A stretch of 49,982 nt of DNA. Source: Polyangiaceae bacterium. GTDB lineage: Bacteria; Myxococcota_A; Polyangia; Polyangiales; Polyangiaceae. The translations under genes and the position numbers were made by a program. A model generated the notes under the pieces. It was not told where the DNA came from. It worked only from the letters and a program-made list of their open reading frames with translations, and did no database searches. The stretch lies in NCBI GenBank assembly GCA_020849655.1, contig JADLFU010000126.1:1-49982 (forward strand), given 5' to 3'. Position 1 is the first letter of the stretch; each line of letters opens with the position of its first letter. Positions 6,101 to 19,959 of this stretch are shown here, piece by piece.

Positions 6101-9100
6101 CGCGCCCTCCGCGCGCGCGTCGAGGCGAGGAAGCCGTCGTCGATCTTGCGCAGCTCCCCCGCGAACCGCGAGAAATCGGGCGCCGCGACCGTGCCGGTGA
6201 GCACCGTCAGCGAGAACTCCTCGTCGAGCGAGTCGCCCGACACGGTCGCCCGCCTGGCTCCGCGGACGAGCCTGTCGGAGATCTCCACCGTGCGGGTCAC
6301 CTCGATCTTCACACCCGGAGGGAGCTTCACGCGGCGCCGCGCGCGGTAGGACATCGACAGATCGACGGCGAGCGCCGAGGTGCGCCCCCCCTTCGACGCG
6401 AACGTGGACGCGAGCGTCGACGCCTGCGACCGCGGGAAGACGAAGTGCACGGGCTCGAGCCCCGGCAGCCCGAGCGCGTCACCGCGCACCTCGGCGTACG
6501 ACGGCACGGTGACGTCTGCCGTCACCGAGACCTCCCACGAGCCCTCGCCCGACGTCAGCGTGACCTCGTCGACGGTCGCCCACGGCAACCACCCGAGCAC
6601 GACCCGGCGCAGCAGCTCCCTGCGATCGGTGCCGACGACGGTGTCGAGCGCGTCCGCGAGCGCCTGCGCCTGCCGACCTCGGAGCGTGGTCGTGAGCTTG
6701 CCCTTCGCGTTGCCCTTGTCGTCGAGCGTGAGGTCGACCGACAGCTCGTCCGTCAGCGTGGCCTGGCCGTCGGGGACGCGCACGATCGATCCGTCGCCGC
6801 GGAGCGCGCTGCGGCCGAGCAGCTCGGGGCTCACCCAGCCGATCGGCGGAGGCGGTCCCGGCACGTCGGCGTCGATCCACACGTCGCCGTCGGGCAGGTG
6901 CGCGAGCAGGAGCGGGTGCATGAACCTCCCGGGTCGCGCGGGGAACTTCGGATCGGCCGAGAACGGCTCGCGCTCCGCCGCGACGATCTCGTTCGCCACG
7001 CCGAGCGCCGAGAGCGCGCGGTGGGCGACGAGCGTGCGGCTGCCCTGGCCGAGCTCGAGCATCGCCATGGCGCCCTCGCGGCTCGGCCCGGTGGTGAGGT
7101 AGGCCGACTGGTCGCTGAGCAGGCTCCCGTTCGCGACGCGGAGCGCCTTGCCCGCCGCGGTGACGACGCGCTGGACGAGCGCGCGCGACGGCGTGGTCTC
7201 GTCGCCGGCCGCGCGCTTCGCCCACGCGGCGATGCGCGTATCACGGTCGGTGAGCGCGCGCAGATAGTCGCCGTAGAGGTGACCGACGTCGGCCCAGGAG
7301 TACGTCCAGAACGACACCGACACGTCCCGGTCCATCTGCGGCGTGCCGTCCTCGATGCGACGAGGCGCGAGGTCTCTCATGCGCCACCGCGTCGTGCGCC
7401 TGCCCTCCGCCTCCGTCGTCGTCGGCGCGCCGAGGAGCGGGTGCGACCACGTCGAGAGCTGGAGGGACGACGGCACGGACAGCTCGATCGTGGCCTCCGC
7501 CACGCCGGTGCGCTCCGGCATCAGATCGGGCGTGTCGACCACGAGGTGACCCGCGCGGTCCGGCAGCGCGAAGGTCTCGACGAGCTGCTCGATGACGTCC
7601 CCCGGCTCGAGCTGGGACAGATCGCTGTTGCCCTGCGCCGCGTTCTCCGCGCGGTCGGGCTCCAGCGTGCGGCCGTCACGCTTGTGGATGAGGCGCCGGA
7701 GCGTGCGGCGCGCGTCGCGTCCGGCGATCGCGAACGCGGTGCCGCCGACCCCTTGCTCGACGTCGGTCGTGCCGGCGACGCGGCGCACGTCGTGGATGAC
7801 CGCGTGGAGCACGCCCGCGGCGGACAGCTCGTACCGCTCGTCGTGCAGCGCGACCTGGGTCGCCTCGCCGCCCGCGGGCGACGCGAGCGCGCGCTTCGCT
7901 GCAGCGCGCCCTGCCTCCTCTCGTCCCTTCGCTGGATCCGCGCCGAACAGCAGCGAGAGCGGGCCGAGCGCGGCGGGCGAGTCCTTCGCGCGGGCGGCGT
8001 CGCGCGCCAGGCGATCGGTGCCGTCCTTCGATCTCGCCGGGGGCAGGGCGGCGAGCAGCGCGAGCGAGCGCTCGCCGGGAGACGCGCGATCGTAGGCCGC
8101 GAGCGCGCCGTCCAGGTCTCCCGCGCCGAGCCGGAGCGCGATCTCGACCTCTGTCAGGCAGGTCGGCGACCCTCGGAGCGCGCGCAGCCTCGTGAGCTCC
8201 GCGAGCGCGCCCGCGTGATCGCCGCGCCGCTTCTTCCACCCGAGGCACGCGAGCGACTGGCGATCACGACCGGGCCCCTCGCACGCGACCCGCTCGGCGT
8301 CGGCGCCCGTCAGAGGGTTCGCGCGGTCGCGCACCGCGATGGCGAGCGGGCTCTCGTCGAGCGGCGTCGCCTTCGCCAGCGCCGCGCGCGCGACGTCGCG
8401 CAGCCCGACGTCCACCGCGGTCGCGGCGACGAAGGTCGAGACGATCGGCGGCGCGTCGGCGAGCTTGCTGAGCTCGGCGAGCGTCTCGACGCGCCCCTCG
8501 CCCGGACCCTTGCGCGCGCCGCTGAAGGTGGCCGACGCGACGACCGGCTCCCAGCCGCCCGGCCACGCGCGGTCGGCGCGCTCCCACGCGGCTCTCGCGA
8601 GCAGGATGCGCTTCGTCTCGGGCACGTCGTCCGCGGTCGAGAGCGCGCGCGCGAGCAGCAGCGACGACGTGGCGGACTCCGGCGCCCCCTCGAGCGCCGC
8701 GCGCGCGGATCTGCCGCGGCCTAGCGCGAGGGACGCCGCCGCCGACAGCTCGAGCGGAGACGACGGAAGGAACAGCTCGTTGCCTGTCGCGACGCCGGCC
8801 GCGCTCGTCTCCGCGCGCGCCGGCTCGATCCGCACGGGGCCATGGGTGCCCACGACGTGCAGGGCGACGCGCGGGCCGTCGTCGAAGGCGCCGATCTTCA
8901 GCCAGAGCCGCGTCGTGCCAGCCCGCAGCGCCGCCTGGCCCAGCACGACGACCGTGTCGGGCCCCGCGGCGAACGGGCGGACACCGACGGGCGCGCCGCC
9001 CACCGAGACGCGCGCGGCCGAGCGAGAGCGCACGAGCACGCCGATCTCCTCGTCGCGGTCGACGCTCAGATCGACCCCGAGCGCGTACGTGCCCGGCACC

Positions 9101-9762
9101 GAGGAGAGCGCGGCGAGATCGAAGACGCCGTCGTCCGCGCTCAGCTCGAGCGGCTCCGCCGCGGGCGCGAGCGGACCGGCGCCCGGCACGCGCCGAGGCA
9201 ACACGGCGCCTGGCGCTTCCCAGGCCTGCGGCGCGGCGAGCCCCGCGTGCGCGCTCGAGGAGACCGGCCCGAGCAGCGTCGCGCGGGTCACGAGGCCTGC
9301 GGCGGCGCGGTGCCTGGACGCGGCCTCGGCGTCGCCGCGGTACCTCGCGAGATCGAGCGCCGCCTGCCCCGCGAGCGCGCGCGCCCACGGCGAGCTCGCG
9401 GTGGACGTCGCGACCTTGGCCACGCGCGCCTCGAGCGACGACGCGTCGGGCACGCGAAACGCGAGCGCGTGCAGCGGCGTCGCGCGGTCGAGCCCGAACG
9501 CCTGACGCCAGACGAGCGCGTCGAGCGACGCCGCGACCGCGAGCAGCCCCACGCCGCGATCGGCCGCTGCGCGCTCGAGCAATGTCGCCTGCCGGTCGAT
9601 GGCGGTGCGAGGATCGCGGTCGAGCTGCTCCGCGCGCGTCGCGTCGTCGAACAGCCCGACCAGGGCGGACTCGTCGACGGCGGCCGTCGGGTGGGCCGGG
9701 GCGGCGCCGCAGCCAGCGACCGACAGCGCCGCGGCGAGCGCGAAGACGGCGCGCGCCCTCAC
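6097..9762 (-). CDS. DUF3857/transglutaminase-like lipoprotein, catalytic Cys replaced by Ser
   Basis: 1,221 residues from a GTG at 9762 (GTGA overlap with the upstream gene). Lipoprotein signal: VRARAVFALAAALSVAGC. Residues ~30-600 are alpha-helical repeats resembling TPRs with a beta-rich insertion. A DUF3857-like beta domain comes next (~640-830: IHDVRRVAG, GDVIEQLVETF, WRMRDLAP), then a transglutaminase-core-like region. Where the neighbouring paralogue has GDCDDKAMLL, this protein has GPSREGAMAML, with Ser894 in the nucleophile position; the downstream His (FMHPLLLAHL) and Asp (VWIDADV) segments remain. The C-terminal ~270 residues are a further DUF3858-like beta domain. It is probably a non-catalytic binding or scaffold partner of the active paralogue. 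Confidence 0.85.
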   Translation of the reverse strand: MRARAVFALAAALSVAGCGAAPAHPTAAVDESALVGLFDDATRAEQLDRDPRTAIDRQATLLERAAADRGVGLLAVAASLDALVWRQAFGLDRATPLHALAFRVPDASSLEARVAKVATSTASSPWARALAGQAALDLARYRGDAEAASRHRAAAGLVTRATLLGPVSSSAHAGLAAPQAWEAPGAVLPRRVPGAGPLAPAAEPLELSADDGVFDLAALSSVPGTYALGVDLSVDRDEEIGVLVRSRSAARVSVGGAPVGVRPFAAGPDTVVVLGQAALRAGTTRLWLKIGAFDDGPRVALHVVGTHGPVRIEPARAETSAAGVATGNELFLPSSPLELSAAASLALGRGRSARAALEGAPESATSSLLLARALSTADDVPETKRILLARAAWERADRAWPGGWEPVVASATFSGARKGPGEGRVETLAELSKLADAPPIVSTFVAATAVDVGLRDVARAALAKATPLDESPLAIAVRDRANPLTGADAERVACEGPGRDRQSLACLGWKKRRGDHAGALAELTRLRALRGSPTCLTEVEIALRLGAGDLDGALAAYDRASPGERSLALLAALPPARSKDGTDRLARDAARAKDSPAALGPLSLLFGADPAKGREEAGRAAAKRALASPAGGEATQVALHDERYELSAAGVLHAVIHDVRRVAGTTDVEQGVGGTAFAIAGRDARRTLRRLIHKRDGRTLEPDRAENAAQGNSDLSQLEPGDVIEQLVETFALPDRAGHLVVDTPDLMPERTGVAEATIELSVPSSLQLSTWSHPLLGAPTTTEAEGRRTTRWRMRDLAPRRIEDGTPQMDRDVSVSFWTYSWADVGHLYGDYLRALTDRDTRIAAWAKRAAGDETTPSRALVQRVVTAAGKALRVANGSLLSDQSAYLTTGPSREGAMAMLELGQGSRTLVAHRALSALGVANEIVAAEREPFSADPKFPARPGRFMHPLLLAHLPDGDVWIDADVPGPPPPIGWVSPELLGRSALRGDGSIVRVPDGQATLTDELSVDLTLDDKGNAKGKLTTTLRGRQAQALADALDTVVGTDRRELLRRVVLGWLPWATVDEVTLTSGEGSWEVSVTADVTVPSYAEVRGDALGLPGLEPVHFVFPRSQASTLASTFASKGGRTSALAVDLSMSYRARRRVKLPPGVKIEVTRTVEISDRLVRGARRATVSGDSLDEEFSLTVLTGTVAAPDFSRFAGELRKIDDGFLASTRARRAR

Positions 9763-12700
9763 CTCGACCCCCGCGCGCTCGGTACGAAGCGGATGCTCCG
9801 GTGCAACAGCGTGTCGACGGACGACAGCCACGCGCGAAACTCGCCATATTTCTCGGGCGGAATCACGTCGGCGTCGAACGTCACCGTCCGCGTGAGCGCG
9901 ACCCTCCGCGGGTTCGTCGGGTCGAGCGTGACCTCGAGCTTCGCGCGGCCGAACGCGCCGCCGTCCGCGTCGCCGCCCGCGGGCAGGTCTCCGGGCACCA
10001 TGCCGTCGGGCGCGAGCAGGTGCACGACGTGGCGCGAGTGGCTCGGCGCGAGGTGGGGCGGGAGCACCACCGGGTGGACGCGCCTCGGCAGCGCCGCGTA
10101 CGTCGCGGTGAGCGTGGACGACGGCGCGAGCTTCACGACGAGATCCTCACCCTCCCGTCGGGCGAACGCGCCGCTCTTCGCGACGAAGCGCACGCGCGCC
10201 GCGCCGTCCTTGAGATCTGGCGCGAACTCGACCGCCTTGTCGACCTCCACCTCGGGGATCCAGCCCGCGACGAGGTTCTGCTCCACCCACTGCGAGCGGG
10301 CGTCCTTCTCTCGCAGCGCGGTGCGCAGGTAGAAGGCGTGGTCCCCGCGGTGCGTCTCCTCGGCCTTCAGCACCGAGGCGCCGGACGCGTCGAGCTCGAT
10401 GTCCCACCGCGCGTCGGAGCCGTAGTCGTCGGGCCGGCCGCGCGGGGTCTTCACCATCTCCGCCGGGCCCTCTGTCGCGAAGAGCGCGAGCGTGCGCGCA
10501 TCCATGCTGGGGATCGGTCCGATCCGGCTCTGCGGGCTCGTCGCGTCGAGCCACATCGCCGGGTGGCCGGGGCGCTCGGGCAGGTAGGCGATGCCGTGGT
10601 CGAAGAGCGGGATGGCCGCCTTCTTCGACGAGAGGAGCTTCTGCTGGGCCGTGTGCCGCGTCTGGATCAGCACCTCCGTCGGCTTCAGCCCCTGCGTCTT
10701 CAAGAGCGAGATGAGCAGCATCGCCTTGTCGTCGCAGTCGCCCTGGCGGCGCGCGAGCAGCTCCTGGGGGCGGTTCGGCAGCCACCACTCGCCCGAGACG
10801 TAGTTCACGTAGCGGATGTCGTCGGCGACGAACTCGAAGAGCGCACGGATGCGTTCATCTTCATTTTTCTTACCCTTCGTGAGCTCCCTCGCGAGCTGCT
10901 TGATCTGCTCGTCGGGCTCGGTGAACCCGGCGACGGCGCCCGCGTACCACGCGCGAAACTCGTCCCACGACGCGAAGCTCGACACGACGAGCGTGGGGAA
11001 CACCTCGCTCGCCTTCGGCATCAGCGGCTCCTCCGGCAGCACCACGGGCGAGTCCCAGATGAAGCGGGTGACCCTGCGATCGCCGTCGTCGCGCTGGTCG
11101 GACTTGTGCTGGGAGCCGTTGAGGACGTCCACCGCGAGGGCGCCCGTCTTCGGCAGATCGAGCACGACCTCGTTGTAGAGGAGCGGGTGCGTCCCGACAG
11201 AGCCGCCGTAGTCGAGGAAGTAGAACGGCGGATCGCCCCGGCGGCCGATCGGGTGGCTCGTCCACGAGCGCACGATGACCTCGACGACGTCGCCCTCCTC
11301 GAGCTTCGGCCAGCGGATCATCGGGCGCCCCTGATCGCTCTTCTGCTCCTCGGCGAACACGATCGATCCGTCGCGCTTGTGCACGCGCGCGCGGACGATC
11401 TCGGTCTCGTCGCCTTCCATCGGGATGGGCTCGTAGAGCTCCTCCTGCGTGCGCGGCGGGATGACGATCTCGCGCGCGTACGGGATGAGCTGCGAGACGC
11501 GGCGATCGTCGTGCTGCGTGACGGCGCGCAACCAGTAGGGCTGCCGGTCGACGACCTCGCCCTTCTTCGCGGGTTCCTTCTTCACCTTCGCGAGCAGGAC
11601 GTCGGCGTCGACGATGTAGCGCTCGTCGCGGAGCTTCGGGCGCTCCTTGCCCCGGGCGCGCAGGGCGACCTCGGCGCGCAGCCGCGCGTCGCCCGGCTCG
11701 AGCTCGCGCGCTCGGTCGAGCGACGCGACGGCCTCGTCGTGATCGCGAGAGGCGTCGGACGCGAACAGGGCCCGCGAGAGCGCGAGCTGCACCGCGCCGA
11801 CGTTGGGGGCGATCTTCGCGGCCACGCGCAGCAGCTCGAGCGCCTCACGCTCCTTGCCCGCAGCGGTGAGCGCGGCGGCGAATGCGTGGAGATCCCCCGC
11901 GCGCGTCAGGCCTCCGCGACCGAGCGCGGCCCGGCCGGCGTCGACGACCGCGTCGCCGCTCACGGCCGTCGCGGCCCGCACGCGCGCGAGGTCGAACCGC
12001 TCCGGCAGCAGCTTCGCGAGCTCGTCGCGCGCGCGGAGCTCGATGGTCAGATCGAACGAGGAGGCGAGGTCGGCCACCTCGTCCCAGAGCGCCGTCGGCG
12101 CGCGATCGCGCTCCTTGTCGACCACCGCGAGCAGCTCCGTCAGCGCGGCGCGCCGGCCCGCGTCGCCGCCGAGCGCCGCGCGCACCTTCGCGCGGAGAAG
12201 CGCGGCCTCCGCGTCCGACTCCGCCGCGAGCGGGGGCTGCGACAGGCCCGCCATCGCCCAGTCGGCGTAGCCGCCGAGGAGCCGCGAGGCGATCGTGCGG
12301 CGGAGCGCGAACGACGCCGTCGCGGCGTCGCCCGTGTCGCGCGCGCGGCCGAGCGCCTTGCCGAAGAGGCCGCTCCGCACCGCGCCGAACGGGGCGATCC
12401 ACGCCGCCATCGCCAGCGTATCGGCGGTCGCGGAAGGATCGGACGCCACCGCGTCGAGCAGGCCGGGTGCCTTCGCCGAGCGCAAATCATCGAGGCCCCC
12501 TTGCACGCGGAGGATCGCGGCGGAGAGGCGGTCGGAGGCTGTGGGAGCCTTCGGGAGGTCGCGCGCCGCGACGGCCGGGCTGACCTCGACGCGCGGGGTG
12601 ATCTTCGCGAAGGTGACGCCCGCGAGCGGCGCGAGATCGGGCGAGGAGGAGAAGGACAGGGGCGCGCCGTCGGGGCGAGAGAGGCGCATCCGCGCGCGCC

Positions 12701-13572: not shown

Positions 13573-14529
13573 ATGGATCGGCTCTCCCTCCGCGAGACGT
13601 TCGGCCTGACCCCGCCGCTGTCCGAGCGCCTCCGCGAGGTGGCGATCGCGGCGCGCGGAGACGGCGCGGTGCCGCCGTCGCGCTTCGACGCCTCCTCTCT
13701 GGGGATCTTCAAGCCCAGGCTCGCGGTGAAGACCTGGCTCGGCTGGCGCCCTCCCGGCGGGCGCCTGCCCGTGACGAACCTCTTCAACCGCACGCCGACT
13801 CCGGTCGAGCAGGGGTGGTCGGTGCGGCGGACGCAGGTGCGCGACCACCGGGGCGGCGACCTCACCTACGACAGCCACAACGGCACCGACTTCGGGATCC
13901 CGGTCGGGACGCGCGTCGTCGCCGCGGCCGCGGGCGTGGTGCTCCGCGTGTCCTCCGAGCTGCACCGCGGCGGGCTGAAGGTGTTCATCGATCACGGGCG
14001 CGGCCTCGTGACGACGTCGAACCACCTCGGCAGGGCGCTCGTCAGGCCGGGCGACCGCGTGCGCCGCGGCCAGGTGATAGCGCTGTCGGCGTACTCGGGC
14101 CTCGACGCGATCGTCTCGTTCCCGTGGGTGGTGCCGCACGTGCACTTCAACGTCTGGCTCGACGGGGAGTCGGTCGACCCGTTCGCATGCGGCGACGAGA
14201 CCCCGATCTGGCTCCACGGCAACGACGCGCAGTCGGACGACGGCGGGTCGTCCGAGGACCTCGCCCCGACGCCGTGGGATCCAACGCGCGTCGCGGCCGC
14301 GATCGACGCGTGCCGCGACGCGGGGGTTCGCGGGGAGCTCCGCGCGACGCGCGACCTCGGCGAGCGCGCGATGGGGGTGCTGTTCCAGCAGAGCTATTTC
14401 CCCGCGCGGTTCGCCGAGCGCGTGCCGCTGTACACTGAGGCGCACGCGCGGGAGGCGCGCTTGACGCTGCCGTTCTCGCGGGAGGACTACACGCGCGTGT
14501 GGATGGTCGACGAGCCCCTCTCTCCTTAG
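13573..14529 (+). CDS. M23 family metallopeptidase
   Basis: 318 residues. The central domain (~95-200) has the M23/LytM zinc motifs: His102 and Asp106 in SHNGTDFGIPVGT, the strand VFIDHGRGLVTTSNHLGRALV, and HVHF with His189/His191 before NVWLDGESVDPF. All ligands are present, so it is predicted to be an active peptidoglycan endopeptidase. There is no obvious N-terminal signal peptide; residues 1-90 are Arg/Pro-rich and the start MDRLSLRETFGLTPPL is not hydrophobic, so export is uncertain or the protein acts from a different start. The C-terminal ~100 residues hold an aromatic tail (FQQSYFPARFAERVPLY). The stop abuts the heptamer repeat at 14530. Confidence 0.88.
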   Translation: MDRLSLRETFGLTPPLSERLREVAIAARGDGAVPPSRFDASSLGIFKPRLAVKTWLGWRPPGGRLPVTNLFNRTPTPVEQGWSVRRTQVRDHRGGDLTYDSHNGTDFGIPVGTRVVAAAAGVVLRVSSELHRGGLKVFIDHGRGLVTTSNHLGRALVRPGDRVRRGQVIALSAYSGLDAIVSFPWVVPHVHFNVWLDGESVDPFACGDETPIWLHGNDAQSDDGGSSEDLAPTPWDPTRVAAAIDACRDAGVRGELRATRDLGERAMGVLFQQSYFPARFAERVPLYTEAHAREARLTLPFSREDYTRVWMVDEPLSP

Positions 14530-14626
14530 AACGGAGAACGGAGGACGGGGAACGGAGGACGGAGGACGGAGGACGGAGAACGAGAACGGAGAACGGAGGA
14601 CGGAGGACGGAGGACGGAGGACGGAG
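14530..14626. repeat. GGAGGAC heptamer array (left)
   Basis: A run of 7-bp units, mostly GGAGGAC with GGAGAAC and GGGGAAC variants and two phase slips, beginning one base after the M23 gene stop codon. Because 7 is not a multiple of 3 all frames stay open, giving a spurious Ser-Val-Leu-Arg-Pro-Pro repeat on the minus strand. Confidence 0.85.
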
Positions 14627-14638
14627 CGTGGCCACACT

Positions 14639-14774
14639 TGCTGGAGCTGGAGGGTCTGCATCGCCCGGGCGCGCACGTTCCGCGCCGGCGATCACAGTCA
14701 ATGAGCGTCGCGGCGAGCCCCGCCGTCACGGAACCTGCGCGGAGGATGGGCATGCAGACCCTCCAGCTCCAGCA
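14639..14774. repeat. Long imperfect palindrome over the four-helix-bundle start
   Basis: Bases 14639-14661 and 14752-14774 are perfect 23-bp inverted complements. After a 1-nt bulge GCCC/GGGC also pairs, and GTTCCG/CGGAAC pair further in. The right arm begins exactly at the ATG of the four-helix-bundle gene, so the left arm carries the same first eight codons (MQTLQLQQ) on the minus strand, where the frame then runs into the heptamer array. This looks like an inverted partial duplicate of the gene's 5' end or a selected secondary structure. Confidence 0.8.
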
Positions 14775-15081
14775 GATCGTTGCGTTCGCGATTGAGATCG
14801 TCACCAGGGTACGGCCCGTGGTTGACAGGTGCGACAGGGCCCTCGCCGATCAGTTGCGTCGCTCGATCAACAGCGTCGTCCTCAACCTCGCCGAGGCCGC
14901 AGGGAGTGACGGCGGCAACCGCCGCGCGCGGCTCGCGACCGCGCGTGGCTCCGTGTACGAGGCTCGCGCCGCCGTCCAGCTCGCCGCAGCCTGGGGCTAC
15001 ACCACGCCCGACCACGCACGCCAGCTCGATCGCGACCTCGACAGGCTCGCCGCCAGGATGTTCGGCGTCTCCCGGAGCTGA
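14752..15081 (+). CDS. Four-helix bundle protein (23S rRNA intervening-sequence protein family)
   Basis: 109 residues from the ATG at 14752, chosen because GGAGG lies 6 bp upstream; an ATG at 14746 would touch that site. The protein is all-helical with the family pattern: an amphipathic first helix (VAFAIEIVTRVRPVV), the CDRALADQLRRSINSVVLNLAEAAG block, NRRARLATARGSVYEARAAVQLA and a final DRDLDRLAARMF helix. The family (TIGR02436) is named from proteins encoded within 23S rRNA intervening sequences, and the Avd accessory protein of diversity-generating retroelements has the same fold. No rRNA or retroelement is nearby. The molecular role is unknown; the basic helices fit nucleic-acid binding. 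It lies inside the heptamer-flanked element. Confidence 0.82.
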   Translation: MQTLQLQQIVAFAIEIVTRVRPVVDRCDRALADQLRRSINSVVLNLAEAAGSDGGNRRARLATARGSVYEARAAVQLAAAWGYTTPDHARQLDRDLDRLAARMFGVSRS

Positions 15082-15104
15082 CTCGTCGCGCGCCGGGGAC
15101 GAGT
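15081..15104 (+). terminator. Hairpin at the end of the four-helix-bundle gene
   Basis: ACTCGTC (15081-15087) and GACGAGT (15098-15104) are perfect 7-bp arms around a GC-rich 10-base loop; the first base is the last base of the TGA stop. Only a weak T/C stretch follows, so it may be a terminator or a structural end of the element. Confidence 0.45.
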
Positions 15105-15213
15105 TGCTCCCGGCGTGCGTGTTCCGCGTGCCCACCGGTCGCCCCACCTCCGTTCGGCGTCGTTCGACCCCGTCCCCCGGACACCCGTGCTCCGTCGTCC
15201 GGCGCCCGTTCAC

Positions 15214-15280
15214 CGTCTCCGATCTCCGACCCCCGACCTCCGACCCCCGAATCTCCGTCCTCCGCCTTCCGTCCTCCGTC
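15214..15280. repeat. TCCTCCG heptamer array (right)
   Basis: A C/T-rich run of 7-bp units (TCCTCCG, ACCTCCG, ACCCCCG, CCTTCCG and variants), the complementary strand type of the left array and therefore inverted relative to it. It ends at the AraC gene stop (15279-15281). It is more diverged than the left array. The stretch 15105-15213 between the gene's hairpin and this array is GC-rich with scattered CTCCGT words, and I see no gene in it. Confidence 0.75.
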
Positions 15281-16292
15281 ACCCGCGCCGGTACGCGCCG
15301 GGCGTTCGCCCCGTCCACCGCCGGAACGCCCGCGTGAAGTTCGCGACGTCGCTGTACCCGACGCGCCACGCGATCTCGGCGACGCTGAGCGTGCGGTCGT
15401 CGGCCAGGAGGAGCGCGCGCTCCCTCCGGTAGGTGTCGAGCAGCGCAGAGAACGTCGTGCCGTGCGCGGCGAGGTGCCGCTCGAGCGTCCGCGGGGAGGC
15501 GTGCAGCGCGGCGGCGACGTCCTCCAGCGTCGAGAACCCTCGGCCGGGCGCGTCGAGCGCGGCCCGCACCCGCGCGAGCAGCCCTCCCGACGCCGCGATC
15601 GCGCTCAGCTCTCGCTCGCACTGCGTCCTCGCGAGCTCCATCGCGACCGGATCGGCCGTCAGGAGCGGGAGCGACAAGAGCTCGCGCGAGAAGACGAGCC
15701 GGTTGGAAGGGCAGCCGAACCGCAGGAGCGCGCGCTGCTCCCCGACGAGCTCCCGCACGTAGTCAGGCTCCGGGAACCCGCACTCGGCGCGCCCGGTGAG
15801 CGCGCGCCCCGTCAGCGCCTGGCCGATCTGCTGCAGACCGGACACGAGGCTCAGCACCGCGAACTCGCGCAGCTCGCCGAGCGGCGCGCGCTCCTCTATC
15901 ACCACCGACGCGGCCTCGCCCTCCTCGTAGAGCGTCAGCGACAGCGCGGTCGTCCGCGTCACGCAGTACCGCTCCGCGAGCGCCAGCGCCTGGCGCACCG
16001 TGCCGGCCGTCATCGCCGCGAACCCGAGGAACCCGTGCTGCGACACGCGCATCCGCAGGCCGAGCAGCACCGCGAGCGCCGGCTGCCCCGTGCGCGCTCG
16101 AGCCGCGACGACGAGCGCCTCGCACGTGGGGATGGGCAGCCTCGCGCCAGGATCCGAGAGCGCCTCGAGCCCGATCCCGACGTCGGCCACGAGCCGCTCG
16201 CGGTCGACCCCCAGCTCCGCGGCGAGCTCCACCACCTCCCGGGCGTACCCGGCGGGGATCGTCGGCTCGGGGGCGGTGGCGGGCGATGACAA
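15279..16292 (-). CDS. AraC family transcriptional regulator
   Basis: 337 residues from a TTG at 16292 (no better upstream start). Residues ~15-200 match the 'arabinose-binding' type N-terminal domain of OruR/ArgR-like AraC proteins (VVELAAELGVDRERLVADVGI, GLRMRVSQHGFLGFAAMTAGTVRQALALAERY). The C-terminus is a standard AraC double helix-turn-helix (LEDVAAALHASPRTLERHLAAHGTTF, then LSVAEIAWRVGYSDVANFTRAFRRWTGRTPGAYRR). It is divergent from the metal-dependent hydrolase gene with 56 bp between starts, so it probably controls that gene and itself. The ligand is unknown; relatives respond to amino acids or lipophilic compounds. The 3' end meets the heptamer element. Confidence 0.88.
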   Translation of the reverse strand: MSSPATAPEPTIPAGYAREVVELAAELGVDRERLVADVGIGLEALSDPGARLPIPTCEALVVAARARTGQPALAVLLGLRMRVSQHGFLGFAAMTAGTVRQALALAERYCVTRTTALSLTLYEEGEAASVVIEERAPLGELREFAVLSLVSGLQQIGQALTGRALTGRAECGFPEPDYVRELVGEQRALLRFGCPSNRLVFSRELLSLPLLTADPVAMELARTQCERELSAIAASGGLLARVRAALDAPGRGFSTLEDVAAALHASPRTLERHLAAHGTTFSALLDTYRRERALLLADDRTLSVAEIAWRVGYSDVANFTRAFRRWTGRTPGAYRRG

Positions 16293-18906: not shown

Positions 18907-19959
18907 ATGCTGCGGGCGATGGTCACGTCACGCCTCCGCTCGCTCCTCCCGCTGCTCGTCTCCTCGCTCGCGCTCGGCGCCTGCACCATCCGCATCGGCA
19001 GCGACACCAACGACGACTCCGACCCCGGCCCGACGTACTACGCGGGCTCCTCCAGCGTCGCGGGCGCGGGCGGGCAGGCGGGGCAAGCGCAGGCGGGTCA
19101 GGCGCAGGCAGGACAGGCGGGCCAGGCGCAGGCAGGACAGGCGGGCCAGGCGCAGGCAGGGCAGGCGGGTCAGAGCGCGTCCACGGGCTCGTTGCGCTTC
19201 GCGCATCTGTCGATCCCGGCTGCCGGCAGCGCGTTCGAGGCGGACGTCTGCTACCGGCCGTGCGCCGACGTCGGCTGTCTGCAGGGCTCGTTCGCCGACT
19301 CGAACGTCGTCGGCCCGGTGTTCTCGAAGGCGCGCGCAGCGGCTGGGCTCGCCGCCGATCCCGAGCTCTACTACCCGGGGATCAGCACGTTCATCGATAT
19401 CCCGGTCGGCGCGTATGAGTTCCGCCTCGTGCGCGGCGACGCCGCCGACTGCTCGACGGGCTACGGCCCAGGGTGGAACGACCAGCCCCGCCAGATCACC
19501 GAGAGCTACGCGACCCTGATCTTCGGCGGCAGCGAGGCCGGGATCACCGCGACCCTGTCGCCCGAGCCGGACTTCACCGACGCGACGAAGGTCGGCTACC
19601 GCGCGTACAACCACACCAAGTCGGGCCCGCTCGAGTTCGGGCTGCTCTCGTCGCAGGGGTTCTTCTCCCTCGTCCCCTCCGTCGGCACCGCCGTCTCGCA
19701 GGTGCAGACCGAGGCCGTGGGCACCTGGAGCGCAGCGTTCGTCATGCCGGGGTCCAGCCCGGCCGACGTCGTCGCCCAGACGCCGCCACGCGCGACGGTC
19801 GCCCACGACTCGTACACGGTCTTCGCGTACGGCACGACGAGGTCCGATCCCACGGCCGCGCTGCGGCCGGGCGCGGCGCTCTGCGTCGACTCCGATCTGG
19901 CTCCCGCCCCGGGGTACGCGCTGATCGCGAACGGCTGCTCGTACGGCTCAGGGAACTGA
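18907..19959 (+). CDS. Lipoprotein with Gln-Ala-Gly repeat linker, DUF4397-like
   Basis: 350 residues from the ATG at 18907, or 346 from the ATG at 18919, which gives a tighter signal peptide. Signal: LRSLLPLLVSSLALGAC (lipobox Cys). After an acidic stretch comes a linker of about 35 residues made almost only of Gln, Ala and Gly (QAGQAQAGQAG), encoded by tandem DNA repeats. The mature domain begins SLRFAHLSIPAAGSAFEADVCY and continues as beta-strands with paired cysteines (YRPCADVGC, ADCSTGYGPGW, CVDSD, NGCSYG); the opening and the PVGAYEFRLVRGD strand resemble DUF4397. It is probably a surface-exposed lipoprotein of unknown role. Its last 12 bp overlap the convergent GH31 gene. Confidence 0.8.
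   Translation: MLRAMVTSRLRSLLPLLVSSLALGACTIRIGSDTNDDSDPGPTYYAGSSSVAGAGGQAGQAQAGQAQAGQAGQAQAGQAGQAQAGQAGQSASTGSLRFAHLSIPAAGSAFEADVCYRPCADVGCLQGSFADSNVVGPVFSKARAAAGLAADPELYYPGISTFIDIPVGAYEFRLVRGDAADCSTGYGPGWNDQPRQITESYATLIFGGSEAGITATLSPEPDFTDATKVGYRAYNHTKSGPLEFGLLSSQGFFSLVPSVGTAVSQVQTEAVGTWSAAFVMPGSSPADVVAQTPPRATVAHDSYTVFAYGTTRSDPTAALRPGAALCVDSDLAPAPGYALIANGCSYGSGN
19069..19172 (+). repeat. Tandem repeats encoding the Gln-Ala-Gly linker
   Basis: In-frame repeats built on GGACAGGCG / GGCCAGGCG / CAGGCA words; the clearest unit is 24 bp and occurs twice back to back followed by a partial third. Being multiples of 3, copy-number changes would lengthen or shorten the linker without breaking the frame. 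Confidence 0.8.

Follow-up and report, generated by a model that had tools for sequence, protein, structure and literature searches.

Between two intact convergent genes of a Polyangiaceae bacterium (Myxococcota; GenBank assembly GCA_020849655.1, contig JADLFU010000126.1) lies a ~750-bp unit that probably belongs to a Myxococcota family of small and apparently autonomous mobile elements, resembling the intervening sequences (IVSs) of 23S rRNA genes, in which the encoded protein would act on its own palindrome at the DNA level. The window analyzed here is that whole contig (49,982 nt; C126), taken from a genome (G000) of 6.6 Mb in 307 contigs. The plan of the family is a tandem array, a 5′ palindrome over the start codon, a gene for an IVP-type four-helix-bundle protein, a 3′ hairpin and a second array. 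As judged from sequence comparison, this reading is supported by the dispersal of the unit in multiple copies, the gain of entire blocks including their arrays, a palindrome whose pairing is conserved and a protein under selection.

Results

An array-flanked unit with a palindrome over its start codon

The unit separates an M23 peptidase gene from a gene encoding an AraC regulator, with no transposase between the two (Table 1). Its left array sets in right behind the M23 stop codon and comprises 13.9 copies of a 7-nt period at 90% match according to Tandem Repeats Finder (TRF); the right array, which reaches the AraC stop, is far more degenerate, and a strict period-7 scan was passed by the left array only. 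The two arrays are complementary to each other, with a best arm of 27 nt at 93% (14593-14619/15253-15279) and a longest arm of 65 nt at 77% (14553-14617/15185-15249). The first 23 nt of the gene recur 90 nt away as an exact inverted copy (23/23 bp), of which fewer than 1e-8 instances would be expected in 750 bp by base composition alone, and the strand encompassing both arms (14627-14790) presents a folding energy of -100.3 kcal/mol (z -6.5 vs shuffles). Scans for sigma-70 promoters and T-tract terminators found nothing. The architecture described in an initial annotation of this contig (its coordinates, heptamer arrays, convergent intact neighbors, four-helix-bundle gene and exact 23-bp inverted copy) is confirmed, with the caveat that the heptamers are one instance of a broader pattern, in which other copies have 6-nt units.

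The product of the gene matches PF05635 (50.1 bits; cut-off 33.8) and TIGR02436, the four-helix-bundle family of 23S rRNA IVPs (52.9 bits; cut-off 24). Its AlphaFold2 model (pLDDT 96.3) is a four-helix bundle that matches the S23/IVP structures 2gsc (template modeling score, TM, 0.81-0.84) and 2rld, as well as Avd, which is found in the particles of diversity-generating retroelements (DGRs; TM ~0.8; PDB 4dwl, 8ub7). A phage or defense protein was rejected for lack of a match in PHROG or PADLOC. A single-protein search returned one close relative, the copy of a congener (Myxococcota metagenome-assembled genome KLAP97), and two weak matches.

Dispersed copies encode a protein under purifying selection

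The host genome harbors four PF05635 genes in total. Besides that of the window, copies on contigs C234 and C157 match the window's palindrome and gene with 86% DNA identity and lie at contig ends, as repeats do, and a copy on C282 is 5′-truncated. The repeats around the C234 and C282 copies are hexamers of other sequence (6-nt units CCCGAA and CCGACC in same-genome copies), and contigs C103 and C183 both begin with heptamer arrays devoid of the gene. PF05635 genes are present in 33 of 59 near relatives, with up to 31 copies per genome, and the clade defined by the window protein is represented in 159 of the 290 genomes of the class, often by 5-30 dispersed copies, and in some other Myxococcota. 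Restriction to a single locus, which the initial annotation had held would speak against mobility, was thus not what the search of relatives revealed: many copies reside at different places.

Layout varies by genus, encompassing single genes, convergent pairs (G040), divergent pairs (G250 and G259) and five genes in tandem (G161), and the array units are particular to each genome (CACTGG, TCCGAT, CCGCTT, GGCTCG and others). The G161 set (locus L191, G161:C2:1848000-1867900, positions 8822-11702) consists of five same-strand copies with arrays between them, a local amplification of the unit such as array-array recombination would give. A preference for convergent gene pairs, an idea stemming from the window and two G040 sites, was not supported by the counts (10/38 vs 59/272).

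With the initial 15 codons of the aligned sequence excluded, dN/dS among same-genome copies ranged from 0.05 to 0.27 across eight genomes, and dS exceeded dN in 307 of 309 copy pairs, which are not independent of each other. Most likely, therefore, the protein is both made and needed. The labels "non-autonomous" and "domesticated" proposed in the initial annotation find no support, since dispersed copies under purifying selection fit an element whose own protein matters.

Whole blocks occupy sites found empty in congeners

In genus g40, nine congeners were searched for the sequences flanking the elements of G040. At the L067 site, G040 harbors a gene pair between two arrays (~1.16 kb in all), where G049 presents 16 bp between gene ends and the element is likewise absent in G226 and G258. 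At the L066 site, two stops are nearly adjacent, without gene or array, in G258, G197, G194, G176 and G242, and only array scraps, together with sequence resembling the outer edge of the element, are found in G049. The contrast between filled and empty sites suggests that arrays and genes were gained together and that genes can be lost leaving scraps, and parsimony favors gain of the complete array-hairpin-gene-pair-array block, arrays included, at both sites. Past mobility of the unit is therefore strongly indicated by comparison: the unit appears to have moved, as initially proposed, given its dispersed multi-copy occurrence, its gain as a block at sites empty in congeners and a palindrome conserved as pairing, not as sequence.

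In the congener G001, the M23 gene and the AraC gene are on separate contigs, each with other neighbors, and they are not adjacent in the family's other matches either. A transposase-like fragment is located behind the G001 M23 gene (L126 1080-1300, reverse complement; G001:C123), and this neighborhood has therefore been rearranged.

Pairing of the start-codon palindrome is conserved

Perfect stems of at least 14 bp were detected at the gene start in 22 of 49 genes, vs 6 of 300 control genes. In two complete genomes (G250 and G259) the geometry of the stem is that of the window, with the right arm beginning at the ATG. The 15 copies in these genomes present double Watson-Crick changes at 12 of 46 pairs (33 cells), compared with 9.1 ± 2.5 double-sided changes in shuffled controls and no more than 8 when the structure was slid, while one-side-only changes are absent from their stem cells and no G.U pair occurs among the 690. 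In the host genome, the window differs from the C234 and C157 copies by CT for AG in the right arm, with a matching compensating change in the left arm. Over 70 stem cores from all families, comprising related and hence non-independent copies, G.T mismatches numbered 26 and A.C mismatches 45 in 2209 cells. Selection on the stems at the RNA level should favor G.U pairs. The lack of the G.T excess that such selection should leave suggests that pairing is kept at the DNA level, conceivably because the palindrome is recognized or because template switching corrects it.

In the window and the 15 copies, start codon and first codons lie within the stem, an arrangement also expected of an RNA device that hides the ribosome-binding site and start codon, allowing the protein to repress its own translation, and that plays no role in mobility. 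We consider such a device unlikely, because the stems show no G.U excess, the Shine-Dalgarno and start region is paired to much the same degree as that of control genes (0.66 vs 0.64), and dispersal, arrays and block gain would be left unexplained. On the gene strand, A.C mismatches exceed G.T mismatches across all 5′ stems (45 vs 26; 96 vs 44 in a wider set), and pairing could matter on the opposite strand. Behind the gene, 3′ hairpins below -30 kcal/mol are present in 36 of 49 cases in this clade vs 90 of 346.

Short tandem arrays are concentrated around the gene

Array statistics were compiled on 20-kb loci, the majority of them taken from complete genomes to avoid a bias from contig ends. 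Period-6/7 arrays make up 20.0% of the bases up to 300 bp from the gene, 8.1% of those at 300-600 bp and 0.12-0.29% of those farther away than 1 kb. An array lies at most 700 bp away from 43 of 49 genes, vs 243 of 5317 random positions (4.6%), and array density is ~17 times higher near the gene than far from it. The association is weaker in classical IVP genes (4/12 vs 74/92), a small sample with partly overlapping loci.

By extrapolation, solitary arrays outnumber gene-linked ones genome-wide, and G049, a complete-looking genome, contains ~30 hexamer arrays without any such gene or any reverse transcriptase. The proposal that the heptamers are recognition ends does not hold up, since unit sequence and length vary between copies and genomes and arrays also occur alone, even in G049. 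Heptamers widespread without the gene, which the initial annotation had regarded as evidence against an element, are indeed found, yet the enrichment of arrays around the gene stands.

Solitary arrays, and the five G161 genes separated by arrays, would also be accounted for if the arrays were the primary mobile or hypermutable sequence, acting as recombination hot spots, and the gene were merely carried or tolerated. This explanation is improbable in our assessment, as the copies are under strong purifying selection, their palindromes are kept paired and the association is with one protein clade, being weaker for classical IVP genes. In genus g40, a second dispersed palindromic repeat (ending in ...CACCGGTTGACGCAGAGTG) adjoins arrays with and without the gene.

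No common partner enzyme was identified

The fold match to Avd raises the alternative that the element is mobilized in trans by a reverse transcriptase, with the protein as an Avd-like accessory in a DGR-like form of retro-mobility. Reverse transcriptase genes were found in 30 of 33 genomes with the protein and 15 of 26 without it (Fisher p 0.005), an association that genome size confounds. Their classes differ, however, comprising UG4 (a DRT) in G040, a retron type XIII-like enzyme in G038 and a group II enzyme in G254, and no reverse transcriptase was found in G039, which is 92% complete and carries 12 copies. In the host genome, the sole reverse transcriptase found lies on another contig (C162). 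A reverse transcriptase was consequently rejected as the partner in spite of its statistical association, and we regard retro-mobility in trans as distinctly unlikely. Mobilization as a miniature inverted-repeat transposable element (MITE) or REPIN by a Y1 (IS200/RAYT) transposase, the only transposase family tested, would fit hairpins and dispersal but is very improbable, Y1_Tnp being absent from six copy-bearing genomes (G000, G001, G216, G161, G040 and G048).

Table 1. Positions of the features described, in the window or in the locus named.
Feature	Location	Strand	Basis
Left heptamer array, ~14 copies of ACGGAGG (GGAGGAC/GGAGAAC)	14531-14626	+	TRF; period-7 scan
5′ palindrome arm, exact inverted copy of the gene's first 23 nt	14639-14661	-	repeat search
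136-bp palindrome/hairpin spanning Shine-Dalgarno and start codon, ~52 aligned stem positions	14639-14774	+	fold; self-complement alignment
Shine-Dalgarno-like GGAGG, 5′ of start ATG (14752)	14741-14745	+	sequence
3′ palindrome arm, the gene's first codons	14752-14774	+	repeat search
Four-helix-bundle protein gene, PF05635, 109 aa	14752-15081	+	profiles; AlphaFold2 model; fold matches
3′ hairpin immediately behind the gene's stop, no T-tract	15084-15121	+	fold
Right degenerate array, TCCTCCG-type, complementary to left array	15185-15285	-	repeat search; TRF (15216-15285)
M23 peptidase open reading frame	13573-14529	+	
AraC regulator gene	15279-16292	-	
Reverse transcriptase, G040 (UG4)	L245 2745-3761		
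Reverse transcriptase, G038	L246 2220-4046		
Reverse transcriptase, G000 (unclear class)	L244 1792-3021		
Second palindromic repeat of g40	L065 2345-2495; L127 310-500; L124 ~640-670; L073 1535-1600		

Elsewhere in the window, positions 19063-19178 contain a further low-complexity tandem repeat with a 24-nt unit, CAGGCGGGCCAGGCGCAGGCAGGA.

Discussion

Several observations weigh against an autonomous mobile element whose protein acts on its palindrome. No transposition was seen, and the presence/absence pattern at the two G040 sites could in principle reflect repeated deletion. No target-site duplication is recognizable at the L067 junction, where arrays mask the ends, and no empty counterpart of the window's own M23/AraC site was found among the relatives searched, so that the comparison with empty sites holds for the two G040 sites and not for the site at which it was first suggested. 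About half of the copies lack a strong stem, 6 of 49 lack an array, and arrays farther than 1.5 kb from the nearest such gene occur at ~21 per Mb (13 in 605 kb). Lastly, no recombinase or polymerase was identified as a partner, and no transposase or reverse transcriptase class was found to be shared.

Among known systems, the unit most resembles the IVSs of 23S rRNA genes. In Coxiella burnetii, such an IVS contains an S23/IVP gene, its terminal inverted repeats form a strong stem-loop, and a few tandem heptamers (GACAGAT) lie just 5′ of the gene; it has been described as selfish, its gene is reported as decaying and the S23/IVP family is still reported to have no known function (PMC4990558). 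Protein family and fold, strong inverted repeats and heptamers before the gene (in Coxiella) are shared. The unit differs in its location outside rRNA, its many dispersed copies, its long flanking 6/7-nt arrays and a gene evidently conserved by selection, unlike the decaying gene of Coxiella. Moreover, the stem of the unit is located 5′ of the gene, overlapping its start, and is complemented by a separate 3′ hairpin, whereas the ends of an IVS pair with the gene in the loop. Location in an rRNA gene was rejected, since no Rfam match was obtained in the window or in seven further element loci. The unit is therefore not an IVS, because it does not reside in rRNA and its palindrome is placed differently, but by analogy it may work like an IVS freed from rRNA.

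The four-helix bundle has the same fold as the Avd of DGRs, but the unit has no adjoining reverse transcriptase gene, its hosts share no reverse transcriptase class, and template and variable repeats were not seen. REPINs and MITEs (PMC3116915) are likewise small dispersed palindromic units, but the one described here encodes its own conserved protein, and several of its host genomes lack a Y1 transposase. Long simple sequence repeats and heptamer arrays, as represented by the citation of Mrazek 2007 in PMC4679880, are also intergenic 6-7-nt tandem arrays, yet those of the unit are linked to a single protein gene, together with which they were gained. In a large-scale CRISPR survey, a figure legend on CRISPR-associated proteins names the 23S rRNA IVP (PMC10910872); going by that legend, we would guess that arrays near IVP genes were perhaps taken for CRISPR-like. 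We found no paper describing gene, palindrome and arrays together in a literature search that covered sources other than subscription papers, and the unit seems to represent a small mobile element of an undescribed kind, a relative of the 23S rRNA intervening sequences.

How such an element might spread can be outlined tentatively. The IVP oligomer would form an Avd-like nucleic-acid-binding barrel that binds the palindrome as an extruded or single-stranded DNA hairpin, and host replication or repair would then place copies of the unit at further intergenic sites through template switching. Slippage at the ends of the hairpin would create or lengthen the short arrays, which would remain as scars after gene loss, the element working like an rRNA intervening sequence freed from its rRNA gene. 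As a whole this is the mechanism that we deem most likely, although we hold it with low confidence. Equally speculative is the broader view that the unit represents a new class of autonomous bacterial element without a transposase, integrase or polymerase of its own, in which an Avd-like oligomer would recognize the start-codon palindrome as a DNA hairpin, drive copying through the host's replication or repair and seed the 6-7-nt arrays at its ends.

With dozens of intergenic copies, a conserved protein and co-varying palindromes, a substrate of the S23/IVP family can be named and tested, and the unexplained short tandem arrays of large bacterial genomes become tied to one protein. If the proposed reading is true, these elements would achieve mobility without any known mobility enzyme, and, were they indeed a new class, this would account for the origin of rRNA intervening sequences and for some of the solitary simple-repeat arrays in these genomes.
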